Shown: positions 32,450 to 63,668 of the stretch, one piece after another
How the letters are laid out: each line of letters opens with the position of its first letter
How positions within the stretch are numbered: the stretch's first letter is position 1
Assembly: GCA_036378675.1 (NCBI GenBank)
Contig: DASUWA010000027.1
Location: forward strand, 62,001-126,000
Direction: 5' to 3'
DNA from: Acidimicrobiales bacterium
GTDB lineage: Bacteria; Actinomycetota; Acidimicrobiia; Acidimicrobiales; Palsa-688
Length of the DNA stretch: 64,000 nucleotides
Made by a program: the position numbers and the translations under genes
The notes under the pieces: generated by a model
The model's input: the letters and a program-made list of their open reading frames with translations, nothing else
Database searches by the model: none
Told to the model about the DNA's origin: nothing

Positions 32450-32468
32450 TAGACGAATTATGCAACGA
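32450..32468 (-). promoter_or_regulatory. 19-bp catabolic operator (site 1)
   Basis: Minus strand reads TCGTTGCATAATTCGTCTA, 16 of 19 bases like the consensus TCGTTGCATAATTCATCGA. It lies in the divergent gap between the amidohydrolase and the mycofactocin-type SDR. Confidence 0.6.
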
Positions 32469-32533
32469 TTAGAACGAATGGACGCTGACGAGGTCCGGCG
32501 AATCGAAGGACCGTGGGAAGGCGGTGGTCGCGG

Positions 32534-33373
32534 ATGACTCACCCGGGGCGCCTCGCCGGCAGGGTGGCCATGGTCACCGGGGCCGCCCGAGGCCAAGGGC
32601 GTTCGCATGCGGTTCGCCTCGCCGCGGAGGGAGCGGACGTCGTTGCGATCGACCTCCTGGAGGACATCGCCTCGGTGCCCTACCGCCTGGCGACAAAAGC
32701 CGATCTCGACGAGACGGCCCGGCTGGTTGAGGAGGCCGGGGGGAAGGTCTTGTGCTCCCGGGCCGATGTCCGGGATTTCGATGAAGTTGATGCAGTCGCC
32801 GCCGAGGCTGCGGAACGGTTCGGTCGGTTGGACATCGTCTGCGCCAACGCCGGCATCATCTCGTACGCGTCGGGCCAAGCGTTGAGCGAGCAGGCGTGGT
32901 CGGACGTCATCGGCGTCAACTTGACGGGGGTCTGGCACACCCTCAAGGCTTGCGTTCCGCACATGCTGTCCGCGGGCCACGGCGGGTCGATCGTGATCAC
33001 CAGCTCCATGGCAGGGCTGAAGGGACTGGCCAACACGGCTCACTACACCGCCGCCAAGCACGGCGTGGTCGGGCTGATGAAGGTCTTCGCCGCCGAACTG
33101 GCAACGCAGGGGATCCGGGTGAACTGCGTGCACCCCACGTCGGTCAACACCGACATGCTGCACAACGAGGCGACCTACAACGTCTTCCGTCCCGGATTCG
33201 AGCACGCCACGCTGGAGGACGCCATGGACGGTTTCCATTTCGTCAACTCCATGCCGACTCCGTGGGTCGAACCGTCTGACGTGTCCGACGCGGTGGCCTG
33301 GTTGGCGTCCGACGAATCCCGGTTTGTTACCGGGATATCTCTTCCGGTCGACGCCGGGTTCCTTCTGCGTTGA
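32534..33373 (+). CDS. Mycofactocin-type NAD-binding short-chain dehydrogenase
   Basis: 279 aa. The cofactor loop reads TGAARGQGRSHAVRLAAEGADVVAIDL, the form characteristic of the mycofactocin-coupled SDR family (TIGR03971), and the following ASVPYRLATKADLDETARLVEEAGGKVL insertion is equally typical. The YxxxK pair is in HYTAAKHGVVGLMK. In this family the nicotinamide is thought to stay bound and to be reoxidised through mycofactocin; the mycofactocin genes are not in the window. Its 3' end overlaps the convergent LivF gene by 47 bases. Confidence 0.88.
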   Translation: MTHPGRLAGRVAMVTGAARGQGRSHAVRLAAEGADVVAIDLLEDIASVPYRLATKADLDETARLVEEAGGKVLCSRADVRDFDEVDAVAAEAAERFGRLDIVCANAGIISYASGQALSEQAWSDVIGVNLTGVWHTLKACVPHMLSAGHGGSIVITSSMAGLKGLANTAHYTAAKHGVVGLMKVFAAELATQGIRVNCVHPTSVNTDMLHNEATYNVFRPGFEHATLEDAMDGFHFVNSMPTPWVEPSDVSDAVAWLASDESRFVTGISLPVDAGFLLR

Positions 33374-34058
33374 AGTAGTGGTCCATGATCTGGGTGGAGC
33401 CGCGCAGCTCGGCCGGCTCCCCGGCGTAGACGATTCGGCCCTTGGCCAGGATGTAGACCACGTCGGCTATGGCGAGCGCTTTGGCGACGTATTGCTCCAC
33501 GACGAGCAGGCTGCGTCCGAAGGTCCGTAGATGGTCGAGGAACTCGAATATCTGGTCGACGACAACCGGGGCTAGGCCCATCGATATTTCGTCGAAGAGC
33601 ACAAGTGGGGCATCGCTGAGATAGGCGCGGAGCAGTGCGAGCATCTGCTGTTGGCCGCCACTCAGAGAGCCTGCCGGGCGCGGCATGCACGGGCGCAGGG
33701 CGGGAAAACAGTCGAGAGCCTCCTCGACTGACGCCGCGGGCTTGCCTCGCGGGGTGAAGAGGCGGACGTTGTCGCGGACCGTCAGGTCCGGGAAGACGCT
33801 GCGTCCCTCGGTGATGTGGCACACGCCCATGCGGGCGCGGGAGTCCGACCCCAGTGCCGACACATCCTGATCATCCAGAAGGACGCGTCCGGCGCGCGGG
33901 CGGAGCAGCCCGGACACCACCTTCAGCAACGAGGTCTTCCCGGCTCCGTTGGCACCCAGGAGCGCGACGACCTGGCCTGCGGGGACCGACATGGACAGGT
34001 CTCTGAGTACGACGGCCGACCCGTATGCAGCACTGACGTCTTCGAGGTCGAGCCTCAC
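33327..34058 (-). CDS. livF: Branched-chain-type ABC transporter ATPase (LivF), importer 1
   Basis: 243-aa ATPase. Walker A is GANGAGKTS, the signature LSGGQQQMLALLRAYL, Walker B LVLFDEISMGLAP and the switch histidine region VVEQYVAKAL. The 'E-Q-Y-V' and 'SMGLAP' are typical of LivF. It is the last of seven minus-strand genes overlapping end to end, and overlaps the convergent SDR gene. The substrate is not predictable; Liv-type systems in catabolic islands often import aromatic or short-chain carboxylates as well as amino acids. Confidence 0.92.
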   Translation of the reverse strand: MRLDLEDVSAAYGSAVVLRDLSMSVPAGQVVALLGANGAGKTSLLKVVSGLLRPRAGRVLLDDQDVSALGSDSRARMGVCHITEGRSVFPDLTVRDNVRLFTPRGKPAASVEEALDCFPALRPCMPRPAGSLSGGQQQMLALLRAYLSDAPLVLFDEISMGLAPVVVDQIFEFLDHLRTFGRSLLVVEQYVAKALAIADVVYILAKGRIVYAGEPAELRGSTQIMDHYFNAEGTRRRPEEISR

Positions 34059-34837
34059 GTGTGGACCCCCAGGTAGGCGTCACGGACCTCCGGGCTGGCC
34101 CGCACTTCACCGGGGGTTCCCTCGAATATCGGCTGCCCGAAGTCCAGCACGTAGATGTAGGAACAGATGCGCATCACCAGCTGCATGTCGTGTTCGACCA
34201 GCAGCACCCCGACCCCGCGCTGGGCGACGATCTCGCAGAGGATGTCCCCGATCCTCTCGCTCTCGGCGCTGTCGAGCCCGCTGGTGGGCTCGTCGAGGAG
34301 CAAGAGCCGGAAGCCCCCCGCCACGACTCGCGCCAGTTCCACCAGTCGCCTCTGACCGGTGCTCAATGAAGCCACGGGCTGCGATTCCAAATCGGTTATC
34401 CCGCAGGTATCCAAGGCTTGCCGGGTCTTCTCCTCGAGAGCCCGGCGTTCTGAACGGCTTACCCTCAGGTGACGGATGGCGCTGCTCCCGACCAGTAGCG
34501 CTTCGACGCCGAGGGCGACGTTCTCGCGGACGGTCATCTGGTTGCAAACCTCGACGATCTGAAACGTCCTGCCCAGACCCAACCGGGCCCGACGGGAGGG
34601 AGAGAGGTGGGTGGCGTCGACACCGAACACCGTTATCGAGCCGGCGGAGGGGCGGACCAGGCCGCTGACCGCGTTGAACACGGTGGTCTTGCCGGCACCG
34701 TTGGGTCCGATGAGGCCGGTGATGCAGCCGAGCGGGGCGGCTAGTTGAACGCCCGCAGCCGCCGGGACACCCTGGTACGCAACCGAGATATCGTGCACGA
34801 CCAAACCGTCTTCCAACGGAGTCGGCCGCTCTTTCAT
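34055..34837 (-). CDS. livG: Branched-chain-type ABC transporter ATPase (LivG), importer 1
   Basis: 260-aa ATPase with Walker A GPNGAGKTT, signature LSTGQRRLVELARVV, Walker B LLLLDEPTSGLD and VLLVEHDMQLVMRI, which is typical of LivG. The ATG at 34837 overlaps the stop of the permease gene (ATGA), and its own stop overlaps the LivF start. The longer frame to 34879 lies within the permease gene. It would pair with LivF under the fused permease. Confidence 0.92.
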   Translation of the reverse strand: MKERPTPLEDGLVVHDISVAYQGVPAAAGVQLAAPLGCITGLIGPNGAGKTTVFNAVSGLVRPSAGSITVFGVDATHLSPSRRARLGLGRTFQIVEVCNQMTVRENVALGVEALLVGSSAIRHLRVSRSERRALEEKTRQALDTCGITDLESQPVASLSTGQRRLVELARVVAGGFRLLLLDEPTSGLDSAESERIGDILCEIVAQRGVGVLLVEHDMQLVMRICSYIYVLDFGQPIFEGTPGEVRASPEVRDAYLGVHT

Positions 34838-36726
34838 CCGTAGGTCTCCACCCTGGATCGCAGCGGGCTGTGCTGCCACCGCCAGGACGACTCTGCGGCG
34901 AGGCGGGCGACCCAGGAGGCAAGCTCGGAGCGCGACGCCAAGACCAGCGAGGCGATCACCGCGGCGAGCCCGAACAGCAGGGTTTGCTGGTCACTCGTGA
35001 ACTTGGTGAGATACCCGGGCACCACCGCAATGAGAAGTGCGGCCAGCACGCTGGAGCGGAACAGTCGCGTCCCGCAGACAGCGAGGACTGCGACCAACAC
35101 GAGCGATTGGACGGGCCCGTACGCGGAGCCGCTCGCCGCCGAGAACTGCGAGATCATCAGTGCCCCGCCGATCCCGGCGAAGAACGACGAAATGCAGAAC
35201 ACGATCAGACGGGTGAGGTTCACCTCGAGCCCGTGGGTCGCCAGCATCGTCGGCGTCTCGGACAGCCCGCGCAGCAGACGCCCCAGCCGGCTGCGCTGGA
35301 CGGCGACCATCGCCGCCAACGATGCGGCCGCGATGGCGAGGCACGCGTAGAAGAACCACGTGTCGCTCGCTCCGTGCACGAACCACAGTCGGGGCCGGGT
35401 CGCTCTGACCGTGAGGCCGCCACCGAACATCAGGAACGACGGGAACACCACTTCTTGCATCAGCACCCCGAAACCGAGTGTTGCCAAAGCCAGATAGATC
35501 CCAGATACGCGCATCGCGGGAAGGACGATCAGCGCCCCGACCGGGACGGTCACCAGCCCGGCCACGAGCAGGGCGATCAGCCAAGGCACCCCGTCGGACG
35601 TGAGGTGTCCCATGGTGGTGGACCCGATCGCCACGAATGCCATCTGACACAGCGAGACCTGCCCCGACGTCCAGGTGAGCAGGCCGAGAGACCCGAAGAT
35701 CACCGCGTAGGTCAGCGCCGCCGTCCACACCGGCAGGTGGGCGCCGACCAGCCGCGGCATCGCCAACAGTAAGGCCGCGGCCGGCACCCAGACCACCGCT
35801 GCGTGCCTGGGGTTGAAGGGGCGGGCCGGTTGGGCGATACCTCGCACGATCGACGGGCCGCCCGGCAGCCGGCGGGGCGGGACCACCAGGAGAACCGCTA
35901 TTAAAACGAGGAACGGTATTGCAGGGGGAAGGCCGCCGAGCGGCCCGTGAGTCGCGTATTTCGTGGCGACCGAAGCGAGAACCCCGACCAGGATCCCGCC
36001 GAGATAGGTGAGTGGCAGACTCGAAAAAAGTCCGATCGCGCACGCCCCGAACGCCTGAATGACCAACAGTGTGAGCAGGGTCGCGTCCAGGCCGAGCGTC
36101 GGGGCCAGCAACATCCCGGAGAGCGCGGCGAACACCGAGCCCAAGCTCCACGCGGCTGCACGTACCCGGTTGGGTCGCTCCCCGGTCAGGCCCACCAACG
36201 ACGGCACGTCCACCGCGGCCCGCATAGCAACGCCGAGGCGGCTTAGCCGCATGAACAGGTACAACCCAACGGACAGCGCCAGCACCAAGCCGGCGGTGAT
36301 GACCTCGCCCCAGCTGATCAGGACGCCGTCGACGTTGAACCCGGTCTGAGGCAGAAACGACGGGAAGTTCCGGGTCACGTCTCCGAACACCACCAAGAGC
36401 AGGCCGTCGACAGCTAGAAACAAGCCGACGGTGAGAGCGACGACGAGGCTGGGCGGGGCGTCCATGACCACCCTTGTCAACGGCTCGAGGACCGTCGCAC
36501 CCAACAGCGCAAACCCGGCTAGCACTACCACGGCTGCCACCGGCCAAGGCCAGCCGTCGAGAACGTGGAGCTCGTAGAAGACGAACGCGGCCGCCGCAGC
36601 CAGGGCGCCGTGCCCGAAGTTGAAAACCCCCGAAGTCCGGTATGTCAGCACGAGGCCAACTCCGGCCAGGCCGTAGAGCGATCCGGTGACAACGCCGACG
36701 ACGAGGAACGGAAGAAGCGAGCTCAC
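34834..36726 (-). CDS. Fused LivH-LivM permease, importer 1
   Basis: 630-aa membrane protein. The first half (LPFLVVGVVTGSLYGLAGVGLVLTYRTSGVFNFGHGALA) is a LivH-type permease; the second half begins near residue 310 and has the LivM core TWTSGQVSLCQMAFVAIG and a later EVNLTRLIVFCISSFFAGIGGAL. The two permeases are usually separate genes. GTG 36726 (VSSLLPFLV) overlaps the stop of the preceding gene (GTGA); the frame can start 3 codons earlier. It should form the whole membrane part of the importer. Confidence 0.88.
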   Translation of the reverse strand: MSSLLPFLVVGVVTGSLYGLAGVGLVLTYRTSGVFNFGHGALAAAAAFVFYELHVLDGWPWPVAAVVVLAGFALLGATVLEPLTRVVMDAPPSLVVALTVGLFLAVDGLLLVVFGDVTRNFPSFLPQTGFNVDGVLISWGEVITAGLVLALSVGLYLFMRLSRLGVAMRAAVDVPSLVGLTGERPNRVRAAAWSLGSVFAALSGMLLAPTLGLDATLLTLLVIQAFGACAIGLFSSLPLTYLGGILVGVLASVATKYATHGPLGGLPPAIPFLVLIAVLLVVPPRRLPGGPSIVRGIAQPARPFNPRHAAVVWVPAAALLLAMPRLVGAHLPVWTAALTYAVIFGSLGLLTWTSGQVSLCQMAFVAIGSTTMGHLTSDGVPWLIALLVAGLVTVPVGALIVLPAMRVSGIYLALATLGFGVLMQEVVFPSFLMFGGGLTVRATRPRLWFVHGASDTWFFYACLAIAAASLAAMVAVQRSRLGRLLRGLSETPTMLATHGLEVNLTRLIVFCISSFFAGIGGALMISQFSAASGSAYGPVQSLVLVAVLAVCGTRLFRSSVLAALLIAVVPGYLTKFTSDQQTLLFGLAAVIASLVLASRSELASWVARLAAESSWRWQHSPLRSRVETYG

Positions 36727-37181
36727 GCCTGGCACACCTGACAGGGCACCCGATCCTTGCGGGCGCCGCTCGCGACGGTCGGCTTACCTTTGACCAGCGG
36801 GCATCCGGGACGGTGGAACATCGTCACCCCGGGGGCCTTGACAGCCACTCGGACATCCGAAGCTGACGTGCGGAGCCGCTCCGCGGACGGTGTAGCGCGG
36901 TCCGGAAGTAGGAGGACTCGCGCAGTGCCCACGTTGCGTCGACCTTGCAGCAACCACAACGCGTTGCTTAGCCCGCAGACGATCAGCCCGACCAGTCCCA
37001 AGTTCAGCCAGGTGAGCTCTCCGCGCACCGTCAACTGGCCGCTCGCCTCGAACCACGAGGCGATCATCAGCGCCGCCCCGACCACCTGGCCGAGTACCGC
37101 ACGCGTGACGTCGTCTCCTTTCCAGGGGTGCCACTTCGTCTGGTCACGACGACCGAGGGCACTCGGGTTCAGCTCATCCAT
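36723..37181 (-). CDS. Small membrane protein with a C-terminal cysteine motif, Liv operon
   Basis: 152 aa. Two hydrophobic helices (VLGQVVGAALMIASWF and LGLVGLIVCGLSNALWLL) are followed by a soluble tail, MFHRPGCPLVKGKPTVASGARKDRVPCQVCQA, with cysteines spaced C-x17-C-x2-C or similar, and H close to the first cysteine. This could bind zinc or serve as an Ada-like/ZZ-like fold. I do not recognise a named family. The gene overlaps its neighbours on both sides, so it is co-translated with the permease. Confidence 0.68.
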   Translation of the reverse strand: MDELNPSALGRRDQTKWHPWKGDDVTRAVLGQVVGAALMIASWFEASGQLTVRGELTWLNLGLVGLIVCGLSNALWLLQGRRNVGTARVLLLPDRATPSAERLRTSASDVRVAVKAPGVTMFHRPGCPLVKGKPTVASGARKDRVPCQVCQA

Positions 37182-37518
37182 GCGAACCGCTTCGGGTCCG
37201 CGACGCTCTTTGCTTCGCAGGGACGACGGGGTCGGCGCCGTTGGTGAGGTTCGCCTGGTCGCGCTTCAGCTCTTGATGGATGCGATCCAGCTTTCGCCAC
37301 TCGTCACGCAGGTCGGCCGACAGCCACAAGGTCGCCCCCAGGCCCAGAGCGAACAGGCCGGCCAGACCTCCTGACGCGAGATAGGGGATCTGCTGGGTCG
37401 CCAGCGTCGACCGGCTGACCCCCAAGTAGCCGAGGATTAGGGCCACCACCCCGAACACCACGACAGCGACCGCCGCTGAACGGTCCCACTGGTTTCTCAA
37501 CCACTTGAAGATGTCCAT
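37174..37518 (-). CDS. Small two-helix membrane protein, Liv operon
   Basis: 114 aa. Two helices (SAAVAVVVFGVVALILGYLG and YLASGGLAGLFALGLGATLWL) then a charged coiled tail (DLRDEWRKLDRIHQELKRDQANL) that may face the cytoplasm. It overlaps the preceding anchored protein gene by 22 bases and the following gene by 8 bases. The function is unknown; the tail suggests protein contacts, possibly with the importer or the anchored protein. Confidence 0.66.
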   Translation of the reverse strand: MDIFKWLRNQWDRSAAVAVVVFGVVALILGYLGVSRSTLATQQIPYLASGGLAGLFALGLGATLWLSADLRDEWRKLDRIHQELKRDQANLTNGADPVVPAKQRASRTRSGSHG

Positions 37519-38825
37519 GGTCCCCTCACTCCCAAGCTGCGCATCAGCTGCGCGGCGACGACAGCAACAAGCGCCGCGGCGGCAAACACCAGATAGAGGC
37601 TCCGGATGTCGAAGCCAACCGGATTCCCTACAAGACTGATCGACCTCCCCGACAACGAGCCAACAGGCGCCGGCTGCCTGACACGCGAGCCGCCAGCAAG
37701 CAGGCCGCCGCTCGGCGCCGCCGAAGCGTCACCGGCCGCAGCAGAGATCGACGGACCAGCCGAGTTCGTCGACGTCGCGTCGGACGTTCCTGAGCCAGTT
37801 CCGGTGCCCGACAGGTCAGATGCACCGCCCGAGGTCGAAGCCGTCGTGTCGGGAGGTCCCGCTCCGACCTGCATGGCCGCGTCGGCGCCTCCGAGAATGA
37901 GCGTGAAAGTGCCCGGGCCGGTTCCCGCGCCCAGGTCGTTGACCGGTCCGGTGAGCTCCACCGCCGGCGCGAGCACTTCGCCGTTGTAGTGCTGCGGCCC
38001 GACGACCGTGGCGGTCAGCCCGGAGCCGGCGAGTATCGAGTGCAGCGTCGGGTTTATCGGCAGTGGAACACTCGGGCCGGCCAGGTTCAGACCAGTCCCC
38101 GAAAGCGACACCGGCACCCCCCCGACTTGCACGCCTGTGATGACCAGCTTGGTCGAGGGCGTCACGCTGCCGTCAGCCGACGCCGTCTCGATGGCGGTTG
38201 AGACCACGTCGCCGATGGCAAGCGGCCCCACCTTCAGGCCCTGGATCTCCGAGGTCGCCTGAGCCACCACGCTGCCGTCGTCCTGGATCTTGACGCTAGA
38301 GGCGGAGGTGACCAGCGCAACGTTGCCGATCAGCCCGTCCTGCAGTCCGCCGCTCGCGCTCGACTCAGTCCCGGTGTCGGTGCTGGTCGTGCGGAGCGAA
38401 TAGGGGCCGGCGCCGACCTGGTCGCTCGGCTGGGTGCCCGCCTCGGACTGCGCGTAGAACGGATACGACGGCGGCTGAGGAATGCTGACCGGAGGCAACC
38501 CCGACAAACCGGTGCTCAGCAGCCCCTGAAGCAAGGTCGGCGCAGACACGACGGTGTCGCCGGGATCGGGGAAGGCCGCGTACCCGATGCTCGTGCCGAA
38601 CGACGTGAGCTCCGACTGGGCGGTCGGTCCCCCGCCGTTGACCGGTGTGCTCGTGATGGGCCCGCCGGGCACCGTGACCGTCAGGTTCACCCCGAACGCG
38701 TCCGACGAGCCCGCAAACGATGCCGGACCGCTATTCGCGTACGCGGAAGCCGGCACCAACACCAGCCCGACTGCTCCCGCCGCCATCGCGGCCGCCCACC
38801 ATCGCGAACTTGGAAGGATGATCAC
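37497..38825 (-). CDS. Secreted protein with C-terminal membrane anchor, Liv operon
   Basis: About 442 aa. The N-terminus has a signal peptide (WWAAAMAAGAVGLVLVPASAYA); the middle is rich in beta strands, threonine, serine and glycine (FGVNLTVTVPGG, TLLQGLLSTGLSGLPPVSI, VVSTAIETASADGSVTPSTKLVITGVQVGGVPVSL); a Ser/Thr/Ala-rich linker follows and a C-terminal helix (YLVFAAAALVAVVAAQLM) anchors it. GTG 38825 is 2 bases after the binding-protein stop. No enzyme motif is visible. It may be a cell-surface partner of the importer. Confidence 0.7.
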   Translation of the reverse strand: MIILPSSRWWAAAMAAGAVGLVLVPASAYANSGPASFAGSSDAFGVNLTVTVPGGPITSTPVNGGGPTAQSELTSFGTSIGYAAFPDPGDTVVSAPTLLQGLLSTGLSGLPPVSIPQPPSYPFYAQSEAGTQPSDQVGAGPYSLRTTSTDTGTESSASGGLQDGLIGNVALVTSASSVKIQDDGSVVAQATSEIQGLKVGPLAIGDVVSTAIETASADGSVTPSTKLVITGVQVGGVPVSLSGTGLNLAGPSVPLPINPTLHSILAGSGLTATVVGPQHYNGEVLAPAVELTGPVNDLGAGTGPGTFTLILGGADAAMQVGAGPPDTTASTSGGASDLSGTGTGSGTSDATSTNSAGPSISAAAGDASAAPSGGLLAGGSRVRQPAPVGSLSGRSISLVGNPVGFDIRSLYLVFAAAALVAVVAAQLMRSLGVRGPWTSSSG

Positions 38826-38827
38826 CT

Positions 38828-40309
38828 TCAGGACTCGCACGTGCGGTGACCGCCATTTGGGCTCACGAAGGTGCCGTTCTCCAGCTTGACCTGGAACCAG
38901 CAGATGCCGACCGGGGCGTTCTGCCCTGCGGTGAACGTCAGCGGGTTGGTGATCCCACCGAGGTCGTTGTTCTTGATGCTGTCCATCCCGGCCAGGATCT
39001 GCGCCGAGGTGATGTTCCCGGGCGGAAGATTCGACTCCCCCGCCAGGAACATCTGCGCGGTCACCCACCCCTGGATCGACGAACCGTCGAGCGGAACCCC
39101 GGCGCCGTACTGGCTCATCACCTTCTGGAACAGAGCAACCGACGGAATATTGGTAGCCGTCCACGGCACGTAACCCAGCTCGGTGTCGAGACCGTTGAGG
39201 TTCGCATCACCCGCCATGTCCGGCGTCGTCGTCTGGGCGGCGGTCGCCAGTTGCGGATGGAAGTTGATCCCGGCACACGACGATGCGGCCCGGTGAATGC
39301 TGTTCGGGTCGAGTGCCACCAGCAGGGCGGTCACACCGGCCTGCTCTGCCGCCTGACACTGCGAGGTGAAGTTCGGGGCACTCAGCGAACCGGTGCCGTT
39401 GTACACGAGTGTCAAGCCGATCTTTTGGGTGTCTGCCGGGGCCTGCTGCGCGTACACGGAGCACTCGGCGGCTTCAACGCACGAGAGGACCCCTACGTGG
39501 GCCTTCTGGCTAGGGGTGAGCTCCTGCGCCATCCCTGCGAACACCGAGTACACGAGCGCGTCGCCACTGGCCGACTCGGGAAAGAAGTTGGGGTGGTCGT
39601 AGTAGAACTGCTCCGCTCCCTCGCTCCCGATGACCGGGATCTTGTGGGACGCGAGGAACTGTTCGCTGCCGGCAGCGGCCAGGGGTGCATCGTTCTGAAC
39701 GAAGGCGACGACGTGATCCTGGTCGACCAGTTGTTCGGTGAGTGCCTGGTTCTGCGAAGGGCTGCCGCCGTCGTCGGCGATGACGTACTTCAGCGGATGG
39801 CAGGCCACGCCGCCTTGAGCGTTGATGTAAGCGACCCATGCGGCGACTGCCCGCGGCCCCGCCGCAACGGCGGCTCCGGCGATTCCGGACTGCTCGCCGA
39901 CGCTGCCGATCACGATCGTAGGTTGCGAAGAACTGCAAGCGTGCGAAGCGGTCGGCTGTCCCGCGCCGATCGAACCGGATCGGGCCCCGCTCGCAGTAGG
40001 CCCGCCTCCACCTCCTGACGCTGATTGCGACGTGCCGGCTCCTCCCGCAGACGTGACCGGTGACCCGGGCGCGGCCTGGGACTGCGACGCGCCGCTCCCG
40101 CCGGCATCTGTGCTCGGAGCGCCACTCGAAGGTCCCGCGGCGCCCTGCCCGCCGGCCACAGGGGTGCCCGCCTGGGCCTTCAGCAACTTCGAGTAAGGCT
40201 CCCGGGTACCGCAGCCGGACACGGTCAGCGCGGACAACGCGACGACCACCGCTGTTGCCGCCACCATCGTGGTTCGAGCACTAGTCCTGAAGCATTCCCC
40301 CAGCTTCAC
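38828..40309 (-). CDS. LivJ-type substrate-binding lipoprotein with a long tether, importer 1
   Basis: 493 aa. The signal peptide ends in a lipobox (ALTVSGCG) near residue 33. Residues 45-125 are a low-complexity tether of Gly, Ser, Ala, Thr and Pro, and then a type-I periplasmic-binding fold begins (QPTIVIGSVGEQSGIAGAAVAAGPRAVAAWVAYINAQGG). The ligand pocket residues cannot be assigned to a substrate. It is the first gene of the seven-gene Liv operon, with a 19-bp operator in its promoter gap at 40330-40348. Confidence 0.86.
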   Translation of the reverse strand: MKLGECFRTSARTTMVAATAVVVALSALTVSGCGTREPYSKLLKAQAGTPVAGGQGAAGPSSGAPSTDAGGSGASQSQAAPGSPVTSAGGAGTSQSASGGGGGPTASGARSGSIGAGQPTASHACSSSQPTIVIGSVGEQSGIAGAAVAAGPRAVAAWVAYINAQGGVACHPLKYVIADDGGSPSQNQALTEQLVDQDHVVAFVQNDAPLAAAGSEQFLASHKIPVIGSEGAEQFYYDHPNFFPESASGDALVYSVFAGMAQELTPSQKAHVGVLSCVEAAECSVYAQQAPADTQKIGLTLVYNGTGSLSAPNFTSQCQAAEQAGVTALLVALDPNSIHRAASSCAGINFHPQLATAAQTTTPDMAGDANLNGLDTELGYVPWTATNIPSVALFQKVMSQYGAGVPLDGSSIQGWVTAQMFLAGESNLPPGNITSAQILAGMDSIKNNDLGGITNPLTFTAGQNAPVGICWFQVKLENGTFVSPNGGHRTCES

Positions 40310-55866: not shown

Positions 55867-56363
55867 GGTCGCGAGACCTTGGGTCGGAACACTGGGAGCC
55901 AGAGATCGTCCGCCAGCAGTTCGAAAGCCACGTCCACGACCATCCCCGAGCGCACCACCTCGGGTTCACAACCGACGACGTTCGTGAGCATCCGCAGTCC
56001 CGGTTGCTCCGCGAGTTCCACGATGGCGACCACGTATGGAGGAGGAAGAGACGCGAACCACTGCTGATGGTTGACAGTCACTGCCCACACGGTCGCTCGC
56101 CCGCTGACCGGCCGCGGCGCGACCTCCAGTGAGTGGCAGGCGGGGCATACCGGCCCCGGGGGGTGGAACCATCTGCCGCAAGTGGCACAACGGTAGATCA
56201 GCAGAACGCCGTCGGCGCCCCCGGTCCAGAAGGCTCGCTCCTCATCGGTCGGTACGGGAAACGGTCGGATCACCGCCCGGTCGTCCGAGCTCGGGTTTCG
56301 CGACGCCGCCCGACAGAGGTGCGTGCTCGCTTGTCTCTCGGAGGCTCCGCCAATCGCGGTCAC
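55863..56363 (-). CDS. DUF35 OB-fold zinc-ribbon partner of the thiolase
   Basis: 166 aa from GTG 56363 or about 136 from GTG 56273 (VIRPFPVP), which matches the usual family start and length. It has a rubredoxin-like zinc ribbon (CATCGRWFHPPGPVCPACHS, C-x2-C-x10-C-x2-C) and an OB fold (GRATVWAVTVNHQQWF ... PYVVAIVELAEQPGLRMLTNVVG). Proteins of this type bind SCP2-like thiolases, which lie next to it with a 4-base overlap. It overlaps the SDR upstream as well. Confidence 0.86.
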   Translation of the reverse strand: MTAIGGASERQASTHLCRAASRNPSSDDRAVIRPFPVPTDEERAFWTGGADGVLLIYRCATCGRWFHPPGPVCPACHSLEVAPRPVSGRATVWAVTVNHQQWFASLPPPYVVAIVELAEQPGLRMLTNVVGCEPEVVRSGMVVDVAFELLADDLWLPVFRPKVSRP

Positions 56364-57145
56364 ACGCGTACGGTGATGCCACCGTCCACAACGAAGGTCT
56401 GGGCGGTCACCCAGGAGGCTGAGTCTGAGCAGAGGAACAGCAATGTCCCGACCAGATCGTCAACAGTGCCGACCCGCTTTATGCTCGCTGTGGCCACCAG
56501 CGCGTCGATGCGGTCCTTCGGAACCGTCACGGCAGTCGCCTCGGTGCTGATCGGACCCGGCGCGATGGCGTTGACCGTGATGCCATCGGAGCCCAGTTCC
56601 CTCGCGAATCCCCTCGTCAGGGAGTGCAGCGCCAGCTTGGCGGTCCCGTAGGCGCCGCCGTTGCCGTATGCCGCGGTGGAGGACTGCATAACTACGCGTC
56701 CCCAACCGGCATCGATCAGCATGGGCGCGAGGGCCTGAGTCACCAGCAGTGGGCCGTCGAGGTTCACCGAGAAGACCTTGCGCCAGTAGTTGATATCGAC
56801 CGTGAGCTGTGGGTCGAACCGCATCGAATGGTAGATCGCGGCGTTGTTCACCACGATGTGGCACGCACCGAACCGAGCCCGAACGGCTTCGGCGAGACTG
56901 AGTGTGCTGTCACGGCTGCTTACGTCGACCGGCGCCGCGTGCGACATGCCACCATCGTCTGCGATCTCGTCGGCAACCTGCTTGGCGGCCGGCTCGTTGA
57001 TGTCGGCCACGACAACCGAGGCGCCGCAGCGCGCGAGCGCTCGCACATATGCCTCGCCGATGCCCTGGCCTGCTCCGGTTACGACCGCGACTCGGCCGGT
57101 GAGGTCGGGCATGGTCGTATCCGGCCCGGAACGAGGGGTGGTCAT
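56360..57145 (-). CDS. Short-chain dehydrogenase/reductase
   Basis: 261 aa. The cofactor loop is TGAGQGIGEAYVR, followed by DINEPAAKQVADEIADDGG, VNNAAIYH, the serine MQSSTAAYG and the catalytic YxxxK in AYGTAKLAL, where the tyrosine follows the glycine directly. The ending WVTAQTFVVDGG is standard. It is the third gene of a minus-strand operon (phosphotransferase, DUF6285-like, SDR, DUF35, thiolase), each overlapping the next by 4 bases. Confidence 0.87.
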   Translation of the reverse strand: MTTPRSGPDTTMPDLTGRVAVVTGAGQGIGEAYVRALARCGASVVVADINEPAAKQVADEIADDGGMSHAAPVDVSSRDSTLSLAEAVRARFGACHIVVNNAAIYHSMRFDPQLTVDINYWRKVFSVNLDGPLLVTQALAPMLIDAGWGRVVMQSSTAAYGNGGAYGTAKLALHSLTRGFARELGSDGITVNAIAPGPISTEATAVTVPKDRIDALVATASIKRVGTVDDLVGTLLFLCSDSASWVTAQTFVVDGGITVRV

Positions 57146-57600
57146 GTTCGGCCAACTAGCTGGAATTGGCCGATGATTTCGAGCTCGTGTCCGAGACGAT
57201 GATCGAATGCTTCTTCGATCTGAGGCCGCAGTGGCGAGTCGTTAGGTGTGTGCTCGTAGGCGGATGAGAGGATCTCGCTCGCCAGGCCGTAGCGTCGGGC
57301 GACGTCGTCGTAGTGCAGGGATTCTTGATTCTGAGCCTCGGCTTCGGCGAGCGCGGTAGCAACGGCACTGGCTTCCGGGTGCGCTGCCACTATGTCCCGG
57401 CCGAGCCGGCGGAGCATCTTGGTCTCCTCCACCATCCAGGCGATCTCGTGTTGAGCGCGTACGGCCAGCGTTGAGAGGATGTGATCGATCATCTGCAAGC
57501 TGGTCTGCAGTTGAGGGTCTGTGACGGCGGGAGTGACGTGTTCGGAAAGCTCCTTGCGGACCACTTCGATCAGGCGGGCAGTCGTCGGCTGGGTGATCAC
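57142..57600 (-). CDS. DUF6285-like protein, partner of the phosphotransferase-like gene
   Basis: 152 aa from GTG 57600, which overlaps the stop of the upstream gene (GTGA). Mostly helical: TTARLIEVVRKELSEHVTPAV, LQTSLQMIDHILSTLAVRAQHEIAW, then a C-terminal helix. The first part resembles DUF6285 proteins that accompany acyl-CoA dehydrogenase and aminoglycoside-phosphotransferase-like genes. Function unknown. The frame extends to 57669, but the GTG overlap fits the other junctions of the operon. Confidence 0.68.
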   Translation of the reverse strand: MITQPTTARLIEVVRKELSEHVTPAVTDPQLQTSLQMIDHILSTLAVRAQHEIAWMVEETKMLRRLGRDIVAAHPEASAVATALAEAEAQNQESLHYDDVARRYGLASEILSSAYEHTPNDSPLRPQIEEAFDHRLGHELEIIGQFQLVGRT

Positions 57601-58643
57601 GACACGACCTCCATCCCCGACTCGATGCCGGTCATTGCTGCTTCCAGACCGCGGACGCTGTCCCGCCACAGCCGATGGCTAAACGGCATCGCCGAAACCA
57701 GATAGGCCGACGTCACGAGATGGTTGGAACCAGCGGCCAGGGCAGCCATCCCTTCAAGCAGGCCACCGAAGGCTTTGAATCCGGCAGCGACCGCGAACCA
57801 CGCGACGGTTGCCGGGTTCACGATCTCGTCGCCAAGACCGGTCACCTCGCAGTAGCGATGACAGAAACCAACAGGGTCCAAGGCGATCGGATCGGGCGGA
57901 GAGAACGCCGCTACCGCCTGGACCCAACCCAAATCGATACGCGGGTCGCCAATATGGGCGTACTCCCAGTCGATCACGCGCATCCCGCCCGCCGCGTCGA
58001 GCATCACGTTCGCGGTCTGGAACTCGCCGTGCACCAGAGTCAGAGGCGCGGGTACTGGCCGGTGGGAATCCAACCAAGCCGCCACCCACCTGATGAAGGG
58101 GTTGTGCTCAGGGTAGGCAGCCTCCAGACCCCGCCAGCTCTCGACAAACGAATCGATGTAGGCGTCCCACGACGCCGGCCGGTTCATCGACGCCGGCGCA
58201 GCACCCCCCTCGACATGCACCACGGCAATCGTCTCAGCCAACTTGAGGGCAAGGCTTCGCTGCTCATCCTCGCCCACCCCGCGAAGCTGGCTGAGCAACT
58301 GCGGGCCATCTACGTAATCACTAATCAGCGCCGGAGCACCCAAAACCGCGCCCGACAGGTCCGACCAGCGCAGGGCGGGAATCGGAACCGTGCCCGCTCT
58401 TGTCAGCGCAGCCAGCAGCTCGCCCTCCGCCACACGATCGGTACGTGAGAGAGCCGCATCCCCCGGCGGGTCGATTCGGAGGACATAGCGCTGCGACCCT
58501 CCGGCCATCGTCGCCGTGAACGCTACGGTCACCAGGCTGTAACCGCCTGTGAGCACCGACAAGTCCTCAACCCGCACCGGCCCAGGTTCACGGGAAGAAA
58601 GAAGCGCCTCCAACCGGCGCCCCAGGTCATCCAGGTCAACCAT
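57597..58643 (-). CDS. Aminoglycoside-phosphotransferase-like kinase (ACAD10/11-type)
   Basis: 348 aa with a kinase-like fold. LVHGEFQTANVML carries the Brenner motif (His-Gly-Glu-Phe instead of HGDF), and VIDWEYAHIGDPRIDLGWV the metal-binding DWE. In animals the ACAD10/11 kinase domains phosphorylate 4-hydroxyacyl-CoAs before elimination of phosphate; bacterial homologues lie beside acyl-CoA dehydrogenases. It is the first gene of a five-gene operon with a 19-bp operator at 58677-58695. Confidence 0.86.
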   Translation of the reverse strand: MVDLDDLGRRLEALLSSREPGPVRVEDLSVLTGGYSLVTVAFTATMAGGSQRYVLRIDPPGDAALSRTDRVAEGELLAALTRAGTVPIPALRWSDLSGAVLGAPALISDYVDGPQLLSQLRGVGEDEQRSLALKLAETIAVVHVEGGAAPASMNRPASWDAYIDSFVESWRGLEAAYPEHNPFIRWVAAWLDSHRPVPAPLTLVHGEFQTANVMLDAAGGMRVIDWEYAHIGDPRIDLGWVQAVAAFSPPDPIALDPVGFCHRYCEVTGLGDEIVNPATVAWFAVAAGFKAFGGLLEGMAALAAGSNHLVTSAYLVSAMPFSHRLWRDSVRGLEAAMTGIESGMEVVS

Positions 58644-58676: not shown

Positions 58677-58695
58677 TCGTTATACTATTCATCGA
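58677..58695 (+). promoter_or_regulatory. 19-bp catabolic operator (site 5)
   Basis: TCGTTATACTATTCATCGA, inside a 24-bp stretch (58675-58698) identical to 61518-61541. It is 33 bases before the phosphotransferase start on the minus strand. Confidence 0.62.
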
Positions 58696-58758: not shown

Positions 58759-60228
58759 TCATCCAAGCGAGACGCACACGTTCTTGAGTCGCACGAACTC
58801 GTGCACTCCCCACCGGCCGCCCTCGACACCATGCCCGCTGCCCCGCCACCCTCCAAATGGGGCGGCAGGAGGGAGCGCCGCCATACCGTTCACCGATACA
58901 TAGCCGGCGTCAAGCGCAGCCGCCACCCGGTGGGCTCGCCGCAGGTCGTTCGTCCACACGTAGCCAGCCAGGCCGTACTTCGTGCCGTTCGCTATCGCCA
59001 ACGCCTCGTCCTCATCGTCGAAAGGCATCACCGCCAGCACCGGGCCGAAGATCTCCTCCTGTGCCAGCGGACTAGCCGGGTCCACATCGCCGAAGACCGT
59101 GGGCTGCACGAAGGCGCCCGCCGCAAGCGCCCCGCCCGCGCGTTGGCCGCCGGTGAGCAGCACCCCGTCGCCGCGGTGGCGGGCGTCCTCCACTACTGAA
59201 AGGACGCGTTCGCAGGCCGCCTCGCCCGCGAGGGGGCCCATCGTCGTCGATGGTTCGAAGGGGTCGCCGAGCCGCGCCTTCTCTGCAGTGGCGACGACCG
59301 CAGCGACCACCTCGTCGTGAATGGCGCGGTCGACCAGCAGCCGCGTCGGCAAGAAGCAACCCTGCCCGCTGTTCTGGATCGTGCCGAGTAAAGCCCCGAG
59401 CTTTCCGACGACGGTCGGCTCAGTGTCGGCGAAGACAATCGACGCCGACTTGCCACCAAGTTCAAGTACAACCGGGGTGTGGTTCTCCGCGGCGGCACGG
59501 GCAACCGCGCGGGCTGCAGAACTACCTCCGGTAAAGCTGATCTTGTCGACACCGGGGTGCGCGCACAAGGCATGACCTGCCCCAGGACCGCCCGGCATGA
59601 CATTGATGACCCCCGGTGGGACAACTTCCTCACAAATACGTGCGAACCTCAGAGCGGAGAACGGAGCCAGCTCCGAGGGCTTGACCACGACCGCGTTTCC
59701 AGCGGCTATGGCCGGTGCCACCTTCAAGGCAATCGAGACGACCGGGCCGTTCCAGGGCGTTATTGCGGCGACCACCCCGTACGGGTTCGCAACCACGTAG
59801 TCGAGCACCGCGCCCCCGGCAGGGACCACGGTCCCGTCGAGCTTGTCAGCCCACCCCGCGAAGTACCGGAACCACTCCGCCGCGAGAGCGACACCGGCAC
59901 GCGTCGCCCGTATCGGTTGCCCCATCTCCAGCGTCTGCAAGGCCGCCAGGTCTCCGGCGGCTGCGACGATCGCGTCGGCCAGCGACGAAAGGAGCAAGCG
60001 ACGCCGCACTGGATCGGCCAGCTCACCGCGCTGGAGCGCGTCGCGCGCGGCTTTTACTGCGAAATCAACTTCGACACTGCCAGCCAATTGGTGCTTGCCG
60101 ACAACCTCCCCCGTTGCCGGATCGTGGTGGGTTCTCTCGCCACCCGTCGAGCCCTCGAGCCACAATCCGTCAACGAAGAGCCGGCCGTCCGGGACCTGCC
60201 GAAGCGCGTCATCGCGCGTGATCGTCAC
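58759..60228 (-). CDS. Aldehyde dehydrogenase
   Basis: 489-aa NAD(P)-dependent enzyme: the asparagine N160 in TPWNGPV, glutamate E256 in LELGGKS, cysteine C291 in GQGCFLPTR and GPVLAVMPFDDEDEAL late in the chain. It is 40 bases after the P450 gene on the same strand, which points to oxidation of an alcohol or aldehyde formed by the P450. The substrate is unknown. Confidence 0.9.
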   Translation of the reverse strand: MTITRDDALRQVPDGRLFVDGLWLEGSTGGERTHHDPATGEVVGKHQLAGSVEVDFAVKAARDALQRGELADPVRRRLLLSSLADAIVAAAGDLAALQTLEMGQPIRATRAGVALAAEWFRYFAGWADKLDGTVVPAGGAVLDYVVANPYGVVAAITPWNGPVVSIALKVAPAIAAGNAVVVKPSELAPFSALRFARICEEVVPPGVINVMPGGPGAGHALCAHPGVDKISFTGGSSAARAVARAAAENHTPVVLELGGKSASIVFADTEPTVVGKLGALLGTIQNSGQGCFLPTRLLVDRAIHDEVVAAVVATAEKARLGDPFEPSTTMGPLAGEAACERVLSVVEDARHRGDGVLLTGGQRAGGALAAGAFVQPTVFGDVDPASPLAQEEIFGPVLAVMPFDDEDEALAIANGTKYGLAGYVWTNDLRRAHRVAAALDAGYVSVNGMAALPPAAPFGGWRGSGHGVEGGRWGVHEFVRLKNVCVSLG

Positions 60229-60268
60229 GGGCCGTAGGTCGCCCCGTTGGCAAGCACCCGGGCGCCCA

Positions 60269-61486
60269 TCAGAAGACCAGATTCAAGTGGTCCGGCCCGG
60301 CCACGCCGCCGCCGTGGAACTGAACGGCAGCCCCGTCCTCGAGCCGGTAATCCGGGATTCGGCGATGCCACTCCTCCATGGCGATAGTCATTTCCAGGCG
60401 CGCCAGATGGGATCCGAGGCAGCGGTGTGGCCCGGCGGCGAACGCCAGGTGCCGGTTCGGCGTCCGGCGGAAATCGATGATGTCGGAGTGGGGGAACTGC
60501 CGGGGATCGCGACCGGCGGCAGCCGTGGGAAGCATGATCCGTTCCCCTGCCTTCATCGAGACGCCGGCGAACTCGATATCGCGCGTGATGTACCTGCCGT
60601 CGGCCACGAACGAGTGATAGCGAAGCAATTCCTCGATCGCTGACGGGATCAGTCCCGGCTCTGTCACAACCTGGCGGCGGTGATCCGGATTGCTGGCAAG
60701 GAACGCCCAGCAGAATCCCAACGCCGACGTGACAGTATCGAGCCCCGCCATGAACAGCAGAACGGCGAACGCAAGGACGTCTTCTTCGGGGAGCTGTGCA
60801 CCATCCAGCTCGGCGGCGAGCAGCGTGCTGATGAGGTCGTCGCCGGGTTTGTTCCTCCGCTTGGCGATGTGCTGCCGTAGGTACGACGTGAGTTGGGTGC
60901 TGGCCAGGTCCTTCGCTGCCTTGCCGTCTGCGTCATCCTGGACGTGAAGAATCGTGTCATTCCAGTCAAGGAATCGCTTCGTGTCATCGGGCGGTAGTCC
61001 CATGAAGCGGAGAAAGATGCTCGTCGGGAGCGGTCTGGCGAAATCCTCGATTAAGTCGCACCTCCCTTCGCCGCACACTTCCCCGATGAGTGATCGGCAC
61101 AAGGACCGAATGTCGCCCTCCCAAGCCCGAACGTTCGCCGGGCCGAACGGGCGGTTGAGCAGATGGCGGTACTTCGTGTGCTCGGGCGGATCCAGGGTGA
61201 TCGGCAGCATTCGCACCTCGCGACCGGGGATCGCCTGCATGCGGCTGGAGAACAGGTCGCTTCGCTGGAAGGCCTCGTGGATGTCCTCGTATCGGGTCAG
61301 GCACCAGAACCCACCGTGGAAGGGACTCCAGAACACCCGACGGCGGTCGCGCAACTCGTCCCAGAACCCGACCGGGTTTCGGAGGAAGGCTTCTGAGTTG
61401 TAGTGCTCCAGCGGATACGTCAGATCCCTTGGGACGTGGGAAGGCCGGGTGGTCACAGCCATACCTGCCGACGACTTGTACGACAC
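60269..61486 (-). CDS. Cytochrome P450
   Basis: 405-aa soluble P450. The I-helix oxygen groove is FMAGLDTVTSALG, the K-helix ExxR is in EELLRYHSFV, and the heme-binding loop FAAGPHRCLGSHLAR holds the cysteine ligand. GTG 61486 has GGAGGG 9 bases upstream. It is divergent from a CoA transferase gene and followed by an ALDH. It should hydroxylate a hydrophobic substrate with electrons from ferredoxin, not encoded in the window. Confidence 0.91.
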   Translation of the reverse strand: MSYKSSAGMAVTTRPSHVPRDLTYPLEHYNSEAFLRNPVGFWDELRDRRRVFWSPFHGGFWCLTRYEDIHEAFQRSDLFSSRMQAIPGREVRMLPITLDPPEHTKYRHLLNRPFGPANVRAWEGDIRSLCRSLIGEVCGEGRCDLIEDFARPLPTSIFLRFMGLPPDDTKRFLDWNDTILHVQDDADGKAAKDLASTQLTSYLRQHIAKRRNKPGDDLISTLLAAELDGAQLPEEDVLAFAVLLFMAGLDTVTSALGFCWAFLASNPDHRRQVVTEPGLIPSAIEELLRYHSFVADGRYITRDIEFAGVSMKAGERIMLPTAAAGRDPRQFPHSDIIDFRRTPNRHLAFAAGPHRCLGSHLARLEMTIAMEEWHRRIPDYRLEDGAAVQFHGGGVAGPDHLNLVF

Positions 61487-61519: not shown

Positions 61520-61538
61520 TCGTTATACTATTCATCGA
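61520..61538 (+). promoter_or_regulatory. 19-bp catabolic operator (site 6)
   Basis: TCGTTATACTATTCATCGA, identical to site 5, in the divergent gap between the P450 and the CaiB-like gene. Confidence 0.62.
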
Positions 61539-61568: not shown

Positions 61569-62771
61569 GTGACGAAACCCTTCAACGGCGTGCGGGTCAT
61601 CGAGGTAGCGGCCTGGACCTTCGTGCCGGCCGCCGCCGCCATCCTTGCGGACCTCGGGGCTGACGTAATCAAGGTCGAGCCGCCGAGCGGCGACCCACAA
61701 CGGGCGCTACGCAACCGCCTGCAGTCCGAAGATCCCGATGCGCCGAACCCATTCCTCGAGATCCCGAACCGGGGAAAGCGAAGCATCACGCTGGACCTGG
61801 GGACGACGAACGGCCGGAGCGTGCTGCTCGAGCTAGCAGCGACCGCAGACGTGTTCCTGACGAGCTACCTGGAGCCCGTACGACGGAAACTCGCCATCGA
61901 CGTCGATGACCTCCGCGCCGTCAACGACCGATTGGTATACGTGCGCGGCAGTGGCTGGGGCCCAACGGGACCGATGGCCGAGCGCGGCGGATTCGACCTC
62001 GCCGCGGCGTGGGCGACGGCATCCATGGCGACACGCATGAGCCGCGGCGGGGATGAACCGATGTGGCAGCCCTCGGCGTTCTACGACCTGCTCGGCGCCA
62101 ACACACTCGCCGGCGCGATCGGGACCGCGCTCTTCCATCGCGCCCACACCGAAGAGGCCACGGTTGTCGATGTATCGCTGCTCAACGTCGGCGTGTGGTC
62201 GCTCGGTCCCGACCTCATGGCTGCGCCGAGCGCAGGGGCTCAACCCGACCGCGACCGCAGCGGAGTGAGCAACCCCATCGCCAACTCGTACCGGACGTCA
62301 GACGGCCGTTGGTTGTATCTCGTCTGCCTGCAAGCAGACCGTTTCTGGAGCGAGCTGTGCCAGCTCATTGGGCGTGAGGACCTTGCGGACGACGTTCGCT
62401 TCCGTGATTCGCGCAACCGCGCCACAAACGCTGTCGAATGCATCCGCGAACTCGACGAGACGTTCTCACAACGCACCCTGTCCGAATGGGATGACGTGCT
62501 CGCCCCCTTCTCAGGCGTTTGGGCTCCCGCGCTCGAGCCCATAGAACTACAAAGCCACCTCCAGGTCGATGCGAACGGTTACCTCGCGACAGGTCACACG
62601 ATCACGGGTCGCGAGTACCGCCTCCCGGCGCCGCCAATGCAGTTCGGCGGTCCCGTGCGACCCGCCGGTCCCGCACCGGAAGCTGGCCAGCATACCGAAG
62701 AGGTGCTCCTCGAGCTCGGGCGATCCTGGGACGAGATCTCCGAGCTGCGCACCACGGGGGCTCTCGGCTAA
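61569..62771 (+). CDS. CaiB/BaiF-type CoA transferase
   Basis: 400-aa family III CoA transferase. It starts GVRVIEVAAWTFVPAAAAILADLGADVIKVEPPSGD, has RGSGWGPTGPMAERGGFDLAAAW with the likely catalytic aspartate D143, and ends with the PPMQFGG region. GTG 61569 follows CGGAGA at a proper distance; the earlier frame start lies in the divergent promoter. It would move CoA between a pathway acid and another acyl-CoA, an alternative to the ligase at 51302. Confidence 0.87.
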   Translation: MTKPFNGVRVIEVAAWTFVPAAAAILADLGADVIKVEPPSGDPQRALRNRLQSEDPDAPNPFLEIPNRGKRSITLDLGTTNGRSVLLELAATADVFLTSYLEPVRRKLAIDVDDLRAVNDRLVYVRGSGWGPTGPMAERGGFDLAAAWATASMATRMSRGGDEPMWQPSAFYDLLGANTLAGAIGTALFHRAHTEEATVVDVSLLNVGVWSLGPDLMAAPSAGAQPDRDRSGVSNPIANSYRTSDGRWLYLVCLQADRFWSELCQLIGREDLADDVRFRDSRNRATNAVECIRELDETFSQRTLSEWDDVLAPFSGVWAPALEPIELQSHLQVDANGYLATGHTITGREYRLPAPPMQFGGPVRPAGPAPEAGQHTEEVLLELGRSWDEISELRTTGALG

Positions 62772-62826
62772 GCCAGCGACGCGGGACCCGCGTCGGGGGC
62801 ACGACCCATCAACCCGCGCTGAAGTG

Positions 62827-63642
62827 CTACCGCCATTGGTACCTCACTCGTTCCTTGGTGAAGACCGTCGCTCGCTGCGCACGGGCGTCCTCGAGCTGGC
62901 TGGCGAGGACTTGTGTCCGGTTCTCGAGGTCGATGGCGGCCTGCTGACCGGGTATCTCGAGCGCCGACCACATAACCTCCTTCGTCATCCAGACGCCGAA
63001 GGGGCTGTTGGTGGCGATCTCTGCTGCAAGGTCGGTAGCGACGTCGATGAGTTGGTCGTCCGGCACGACATCGACCACGAGCTGCATCTCCCGTGCCGCC
63101 TGGGAGTCGATCAGTCTCCCGGTGAGCATCAGCAGGTGAGCGTTGCCTGCGCCGACGATGCGAGGCAGGAGCCAGCTCGTCGAGATATCCGCACCCGACA
63201 CGCCGACCTTTATGAAGCTGGCGGCGAACCGCGCGCTGGTCGCCGCCAAGCGAACATCAGCAGCCAGCACCAGGGCCAGCCCTCCGCCGGCAGCAGGCCC
63301 ATTGACAGCGGCGATGATCGGTTTGCGCAGGCGCCGCATGCTTGTCACCAATCCGGCTATGTGCTGCTGAAGGAGGAAGTTGGCCGGGATGTCCCCGAGC
63401 GATTCGCTGTGGGGGGCGTCCCCCATACCTGTCAGGTCGGCCCCGGAGCAGAAACCGCGGCCTGAGCCGGTCAGGATGACGCATCTCACCGACGGGTCCG
63501 CATCTGCCTCGGCGAGAGCAGCTGTCAGCGCCGAGATCAGCTCGACGTTGAGAGCGTTCAACCGCTCCGGGCGGTGCATGGTCAGGAGGCGCACCCCGCC
63601 CGACTGAGCCTCCACGAGGACCGTAGGCGCCTGCGGGTTCAC
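62827..63642 (-). CDS. Enoyl-CoA hydratase/isomerase family protein (3)
   Basis: 271-aa crotonase-fold protein. The motifs are VRLLTMHRPERLNALNVELI, GFCSGADL and the oxyanion loop IIAAVNGPAAGGGLALVLAADVRLA, followed by GADISTSWLLPRIVGAG. The usual glutamates are not both recognisable, so activity is uncertain. It is divergent from a P450 gene with a 19-bp operator between them. Confidence 0.87.
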   Translation of the reverse strand: MNPQAPTVLVEAQSGGVRLLTMHRPERLNALNVELISALTAALAEADADPSVRCVILTGSGRGFCSGADLTGMGDAPHSESLGDIPANFLLQQHIAGLVTSMRRLRKPIIAAVNGPAAGGGLALVLAADVRLAATSARFAASFIKVGVSGADISTSWLLPRIVGAGNAHLLMLTGRLIDSQAAREMQLVVDVVPDDQLIDVATDLAAEIATNSPFGVWMTKEVMWSALEIPGQQAAIDLENRTQVLASQLEDARAQRATVFTKERVRYQWR

Positions 63643-63649
63643 CGAGATA

Positions 63650-63668
63650 TCGTTGCATAATTCATCGA
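63650..63668 (+). promoter_or_regulatory. 19-bp catabolic operator (site 7)
   Basis: TCGTTGCATAATTCATCGA, the most symmetric copy: TCGTTGCAT, one base, ATTCATCGA. It is in the divergent gap between the hydratase gene (start 63642) and the P450 gene (start 63688). Confidence 0.65.

Follow-up and report, generated by a model that had tools for sequence, protein, structure and literature searches.

A 19-bp palindrome shared by the promoters of a transport and oxidation gene cluster in an Acidimicrobiales bacterium, and its probable GntR/FCD repressor

The window analysed here, a stretch of 64,000 nucleotides (contig C27, DASUWA010000027.1, positions 62001-126000) from the 4.1-Mb, 75-contig genome of an Acidimicrobiales bacterium, carries a large cluster of uptake and oxidation genes in whose promoter regions a 19-bp palindrome recurs. 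All seven copies reported in the first-pass annotation of this DNA were recovered at the positions given there (O2-O8), and they share the sequence TCGwTGmATnATkCAwCGA. An eighth copy, O1, absent from that annotation, was found with a weight matrix built from the sites. The palindromes are probably the operators of one local regulon under a repressor encoded in the cluster, GntR1, which would be released by a pathway intermediate. The sites are given below, some of them with their counterparts in a second genome, the Acidimicrobiaceae metagenome-assembled genome palsa_693 (nt, nucleotides; SDR, short-chain dehydrogenase/reductase; CoA, coenzyme A).

O1, 30365..30383, minus strand: weak site of 11 bits, located 16 nt before the start of GntR1, 14/19 identical to its palsa_693 orthologue (20 bits)
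O2, 32450..32468, minus strand: TCGTTGCATAATTCGTCTA on that strand, between the amidohydrolase (minus) and the SDR gene (plus), 17/19 identical to L029:19258 of palsa_693
O3, 40330..40348, minus strand: upstream of the importer-1 operon (minus), 17/19 identical to L022:9916 of palsa_693
O4, 48524..48542, minus strand: in tandem with O5, between importer 2 (minus) and MaoC (plus)
O5, 48557..48575, minus strand: palindrome end 7 nt before the MaoC ATG (48583)
O6, 58677..58695, plus strand: class B, before the phosphotransferase (APH) operon (minus)
O7, 61520..61538, plus strand: class B, identical to O6, between a P450 gene (minus) and CaiB (plus)
O8, 63650..63668, plus strand: best consensus, between the enoyl-CoA hydratase (minus, GTG 63642, 7 nt) and the second P450 (plus, GTG 63688, 19 nt)

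The genes that accompany these sites are as follows.

29575..30348, minus strand: GntR1, regulator with a GntR winged helix-turn-helix and an FCD domain, proposed to be the repressor reading the palindrome
31249..32430, minus strand: amidohydrolase of the Amidohydrolase_2 family; nearest solved proteins DitZ (8uyr) and PtmU3 (a diiron monooxygenase)
32534..33373, plus strand: SDR oxidoreductase
33327..40309, minus strand: importer-1 operon, with two LIV-type ATPases, a fused permease, three small or uncharacterised genes and a substrate-binding protein
40407..48424, minus strand: importer-2 operon, with a permease-ATPase fusion, an ATPase, a substrate-binding protein, an acyl-CoA dehydrogenase and a molybdopterin oxidoreductase
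48583..54624, plus strand: MaoC operon, with a MaoC hydratase, an aldehyde dehydrogenase, an AMP ligase (a CoA ligase), an SDR and an LLM oxidoreductase of the F420 type
54691..58643, minus strand: APH operon, with an Ltp2-like thiolase, a ChsH2-type OB/zinc protein, an SDR, an uncharacterised gene and an APH-family phosphotransferase
58759..61486, minus strand: aldehyde dehydrogenase and P450 (nearest solved proteins P450cam, CYP101 and P450cin)
61569..62771, plus strand: CaiB-type CoA-transferase (family III)
62827..63642, minus strand: enoyl-CoA hydratase
63688..64000, plus strand: second P450, continuing past the window to contig position 126887 (400 codons in total)

The three uncharacterised genes of the importer-1 operon (36723-38840) are kept in palsa_693 and are possibly accessory parts of the importer; weak relatives of two of them adjoin a 48% identical GntR homologue and an importer operon in another relative, G700.

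When the window is searched with TCGNTGNATNATNCANCGA at up to two mismatches, exactly seven matches are obtained, which are the seven sites, against none in 20 shuffled versions. The exact consensus occurs a single time, at 63650, and four sites only lie within three mismatches of the exact consensus sequence (0.03 expected). As had been claimed, the copies are located in promoter gaps, all seven being wholly outside called genes; 4.4% of 19-mer positions fall wholly in gaps between 29.5 and 64 kb, and 7.6% in the whole window. The palindromy described for the motif is a property of the consensus, but the individual sites are imperfect palindromes. Likewise, the reported 24-bp identity is real, but it relates 58674-58697 to 61517-61540; the span noted before (58675-58698) is one base off and matches at 23 of 24 positions.

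Further, the motif has been followed across the genome by pattern searches with the reversed pattern as a control. The enrichment on which the first-pass annotation had made its proposal depend is found: at up to two mismatches there are 14 matches, against one for the control. Seven of them are the window sites, four lie inside genes, two are paired at a MarR promoter on contig C38, and one is on contig C33. Since half of the matches stand in the cluster and the rest are mostly in genes or in the MarR pair, the regulon is essentially local. The twin palindrome on contig C38 (4608/4634) was considered as a regulon member and rejected, as it sits in the promoter region that an unrelated MarR gene shares with a divergent gene; the two tandem TCGTTGG...CCAACGA palindromes in the gap between this gene and the divergent one (L026:4608-4652) probably form a MarR operator outside the regulon. 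The match on contig C33 (TCGAAGGATGATTCTTCGA, C33:61066-61084, locus L013) is palindromic, lies outside called genes and fits none of the explanations considered below.

Matches at up to one mismatch occur in 6 of 61 genomes (including G000, G012, G001, G057, G043 and G050). Those of G001 and G057 were rejected as regulon sites, both being inside called genes, and so was the near-perfect match of G043, which stands in a short gap between co-directional genes with no similar cluster there. The same search of 60 relatives led to palsa_693 (G012, contig C20, PMHH01000154.1), where orthologues of many window genes, with 70-81% DNA identity, form a cluster of rearranged order. This cluster carries four sites of the palindrome (motif 1):

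before the aldehyde dehydrogenase
between the amidohydrolase and MaoC
before importer 1
27 nt before the start of the GntR1 orthologue (protein identity 78%), in the gap that separates it from the phosphotransferase operon, 20 bits

In the whole palsa_693 genome the pattern matches eight times and the control five times; three of the eight, the best included, are cluster sites. In contrast to the 17/19 identity of the amidohydrolase and importer-1 sites, their flanks show about 2-8 matches per 20 at 40-60 bp, except for one block of 14/20. At the GntR2 promoter, where a second palindrome is located (see below), the identity is 16/19.

GntR1 consists of an N-terminal winged helix-turn-helix (PF00392, E 1.1e-16) and a C-terminal FCD ligand domain (PF07729, E 9.3e-14), both matching above cut-off. 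Its predicted model is all-helical after the wing and finds NanR, LldR and Atu1419 as the best folds in the PDB (mean predicted local distance difference test score, pLDDT, of 78, from a four-sequence alignment). The nearest solved relatives are LldR (2di3), PdhR and NanR (6on4), and the match to the NanR family (NCBIfam PRK03837) reaches 97 bits, below the curated cut-off of 260. GntR1 and GntR2 are the only classical regulators annotated between 24.3 kb and the end of the second P450 (about 64.9 kb). Just past the right end of the cluster (L016:1041-1609), a PemK/MazF-type toxin and a ribbon-helix-helix antitoxin are encoded.

In a scan for near relatives over 84,980 species, a close orthologue of GntR1 (78%) was found only in palsa_693, and homologues elsewhere are 55% identical or less. 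In both genomes the gene is linked to the regulon and has a site of its own, 16 nt before its start in the window (weak) and 27 nt before it in palsa_693. The first-pass annotation had named no regulator; GntR1, with its own site, is the best candidate. Because one site stands beside the GntR1 orthologue in palsa_693 and the weaker O1 at GntR1 in the window, the palindrome can be assigned to GntR1, as whose operator it is likely to serve.

It might be supposed that the regulon is a single one and that its binder is an unlinked regulator, e.g., of the TetR type, with 48 TetR_N matches in the genome, or of the IclR type. Operators of 19 bp with 9-bp half-sites are usual for the TetR family too, and the canonical operator of the FadR subfamily is shorter than 19 bp. 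However, this contig encodes a single TetR, which at position 500 is over 90 kb off, no orthologue of the TetR adjoining the palsa_693 cluster exists in this genome, and the GntR1 promoter carries a conserved site in both genomes; we therefore regard an unlinked binder as unlikely.

The first-pass annotation had placed one regulator over roughly 30 kb. A shared operator does extend over about 34 kb (30.4-63.7 kb), judging from the promoter position of the sites, their near-confinement to the cluster and their conservation in palsa_693, but the genes at 24.3-29.6 kb appear to be under a second, paralogous regulator with a palindrome of its own:

25148..25166, plus strand: second palindrome (CCGTCAATACTATAATCGA), upstream of an SDR gene (24326-25081)
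25185..25991, minus strand: GntR2, paralogous GntR/FCD regulator, 38-39% identical to GntR1
26091..26109, minus strand: second palindrome, between GntR2 (minus) and an operon of HAD, acyl-CoA dehydrogenase and enoyl-CoA hydratase genes (plus); orthologue L029:10269-10287 in palsa_693

This related palindrome, TCGTCAATACTATAATCGA, is found just twice in the genome when up to three mismatches are allowed, and the two copies flank GntR2, whose own operator it probably is. GntR2 and its similarly built palindrome thus provide, within the same region, a parallel to the pairing of GntR1 with motif 1. In another genome, G557, a TTGTCAAAAGTTTAGGCGA-type element (17.9 bits, L071:10267-10285) that resembles the second palindrome immediately precedes the start codon of a GntR/FCD homologue (45% identical) from another family of the class, and G567 has a weaker TTGTCAAAAGTTTAGGCGA-like copy (L074:4942-4960); both are leads only.

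Equally improbable as an unlinked binder is the idea that GntR1 and GntR2 form one network, both proteins binding both palindromes and controlling the two blocks in an overlapping manner. They are paralogues with adjoining target blocks and operators of equal length with TCG/CGA ends, and ATACTAT, which is present in motif 2, also occurs in the class-B sites O6 and O7. On the other hand, the palindromes differ at the inner bases and belong to separate sets of promoters, and the arginine that precedes TT of the recognition helix in GntR1 (VARTTVRDAF) is missing from GntR2 (VSLPTLRAAL).

As to the control exerted by GntR1, the arrangement of the sites relative to start codons is informative. On one side of the palindrome, start codons lie at 19 nt (P450, GTG 63688; amidohydrolase, GTG 32430) or 20 nt (importer 1, GTG, in both genomes; the palsa_693 amidohydrolase), and on the opposite side at 7 nt (hydratase, GTG 63642; MaoC, ATG 48583; the palsa_693 aldehyde dehydrogenase) or 10 nt (the palsa_693 MaoC). 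Moreover, when the sites are oriented with TCGTTGCAT leading, a TGSCAA flank follows 5 of the 7 after 3-4 nt, on the side of the starts at 19-20 nt; it is exact at four of them, and an exact match has a chance of 0.8% per site. The fixed distances of 7 and 19-20 nt at most class-A sites fit a repressor that blocks leaderless promoters overlapping back to back, with the putative elements TTGCAT-17-CAAGAT-n6-start one way and TTGCCA-17/18-AACGAT-n6-start the other way. At O6 and O7 the palindrome includes TAGTAT, which follows TTGCCA or TTGCCG at 17-18 nt, and the minus-strand genes start 33 nt away. A neutral scan of 58.6-64.0 kb gave a single sigma-70-like match, TTGCCA-17-TAGTAT on the minus strand, with its -10 element inside O6.

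According to the proposed mechanism, GntR1 would bind each 19-bp site as a dimer or a pair of dimers. With the sites placed on promoters, often on two that overlap back to back, binding would shut off together the two LIV-type importers, the genes of CoA activation and those of oxidation, and GntR1 would repress its own gene, too. We infer that these operons are co-expressed and serve one common substrate. The inducer would be a pathway intermediate, probably a cyclic isoprenoid in the form of an acid or a CoA ester, that binds the FCD domain and frees the repressor. A protein bound over a promoter can be expected to stand in the way of RNA polymerase, so that repression is its most probable mode of action. 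An activator at the same sites would suit the weak hexamers found at most of them, and yet it is very unlikely: the sites overlap the presumed -10 element or the spacer and reach to within 7 nt of start codons, where a repressor would be placed, and repression from sites overlying the -10 element is described for characterised FCD proteins, Atu1419 among them (PMC7797058). Finally, as genes and sites have moved together in palsa_693, chance or a non-regulatory dispersed repeat (a terminator or an element like the repetitive extragenic palindromes) is hardly credible, for although short palindromes are common in genomes, this one is missing from the shuffles and almost missing from other genome gaps that lack another regulator, and it keeps its position relative to genes across the rearranged clusters.

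Several observations weigh against control of the cluster by GntR1 in this manner. The start of importer 2, at a distance of about 100 nt from the site, does not obey the fixed-distance rule, and the proposed promoter hexamers are weak apart from those at O6. O1 has only 11 bits, and shuffling 64 kb produces a score of at least 11 about once, albeit not at a position fixed beforehand. The palsa_693 site in the gap between GntR1 and the APH operon could serve the divergent APH operon alone. In addition, the pairing is seen in two genomes only, and the 55% identical GntR of G557 belongs to a cluster of similar genes without a motif-1 site; this lack is not decisive, because even proteins that are 60-70% identical may bind distinct motifs (PMC4494728). 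No convincing motif-1 site was found in the parts examined of G557 or of G700 (48% homologue). AGCAAAT-ATAC-AGC elements are shared by two promoters next to this 55% homologue of G557 (L071:2026-2045 and L071:6610-6635) and may be its own, different operator. A de novo search for repeated strict palindromes near GntR homologues of 30-42% identity gave nothing useful, the criterion being so strict that the known sites themselves were missed.

The form of the operator is another such point. Operators of the FadR subfamily are typically TKGT-n3-ACMA (PMC4494728). Taken whole, the 19-mer does not conform to this, its TCG/CGA outer boxes being 11 nt apart. It can be read, from its letters, as two overlapping inverted TnGTnnnA(C/T)nA boxes, and a perfect TnGTnnnACnA is confined to O6 and O7, where it is TCGTTATACTA in both. 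The form TKGT-n3(2)-ACMA is not universal in the subfamily, NanR and BioR being different. It is possible, though on present evidence rather doubtful, that we are dealing with a family of GntR/FCD repressors with an enlarged 19-bp operator (two overlapping inverted boxes, probably for a pair of dimers) set inside back-to-back leaderless promoters, where a divergent pair of operons lacking 5′ leaders would be silenced from one bound site; in that case GntR1 and GntR2 would be a duplicated repressor-operator pair that diverged in sequence and kept its geometry. The unusual operator and the apparent overlap of leaderless promoters are the most interesting points. The regulon itself is new and local, real, conserved and of a known kind, a local repressor with a shared operator being standard biology.

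The nature of the substrate is suggested by the relatives of several enzymes. The two P450s have P450cam/CYP101, P450cin and CYP143 as their nearest solved proteins. The amidohydrolase matches DitZ, which we take to be a dit gene product, with 6e-72 over 374 residues, and PtmU3 with 1.6e-34. PtmU3 is a member of the amidohydrolase-related dinuclear oxygenases (PMC10811679). The nearest solved protein of the thiolase is a 6ok1 chain deposited as a lipid-transfer protein, presumably an Ltp2-type aldolase. Together, these relatives of P450s, of an amidohydrolase-type oxygenase and of an Ltp2-type aldolase suggest the CoA-dependent breakdown of a cyclic isoprenoid (terpenoid-like) substrate. Literature searches returned nothing usable on DitZ and no paper on GntR/FCD regulators in Acidimicrobiia. 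For uncultured Acidimicrobiia of soil, the cluster offers a testable regulator-operator pair and a bounded regulon, of about 30 genes, that belongs to a pathway of uptake and oxidation not yet characterised, with cyclic isoprenoids as substrates worth trying, and the paralogous GntR2 pair allows the evolution of operators in FCD regulators to be studied.

With the dit clusters for diterpenoid resin acids in Pseudomonas and Paraburkholderia the present cluster has in common P450, CoA ligase, SDR, thiolase-like and hydratase genes as well as a DitZ-like protein of the amidohydrolase fold, but it has LIV-type ABC importers and a different regulator, and no Rieske ring dioxygenase (ditA1-type), a criterion of dit clusters, was found among its Pfam-scanned genes. 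The Rhodococcus pDK3 and Streptomyces NBC_00080 plasmids encode an amidohydrolase 63-68% identical to that of the window, with similar CoA-transferase, thiolase and OB-fold, acyl-CoA dehydrogenase and SDR genes, and pDK3 also shares the ABC importer and substrate-binding proteins, the phosphotransferase, aldehyde dehydrogenase and ligase. However, the regulators of the plasmid clusters are annotated as LysR, TetR, IclR and a 490-aa FCD protein, and no palindrome above background was detected in the Rhodococcus and Streptomyces amidohydrolase clusters; the pathway is therefore wider than this switch. In the divergent SDR/amidohydrolase promoter of the NBC_00080 plasmid, at a place homologous to 32450, there is TCGATGATCTCTTGATCGA (L064:14868-14886), an analogous operator or a chance occurrence; the 490-aa FCD protein is encoded in this same cluster.

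Among known regulatory systems, the closest are the local regulons of GntR/FCD proteins (NanR, LldR, Atu1419/VanR), which, like GntR1, combine a GntR winged helix-turn-helix with an FCD domain and control catabolic or transport genes locally. As in the GntR1 cluster, the sites of Atu1419 overlap promoters, and a site at the regulator's own promoter is a further likeness of the GntR1 system to FadR-subfamily regulons, from whose usual operator the widely spaced 19-bp palindrome sets it apart.

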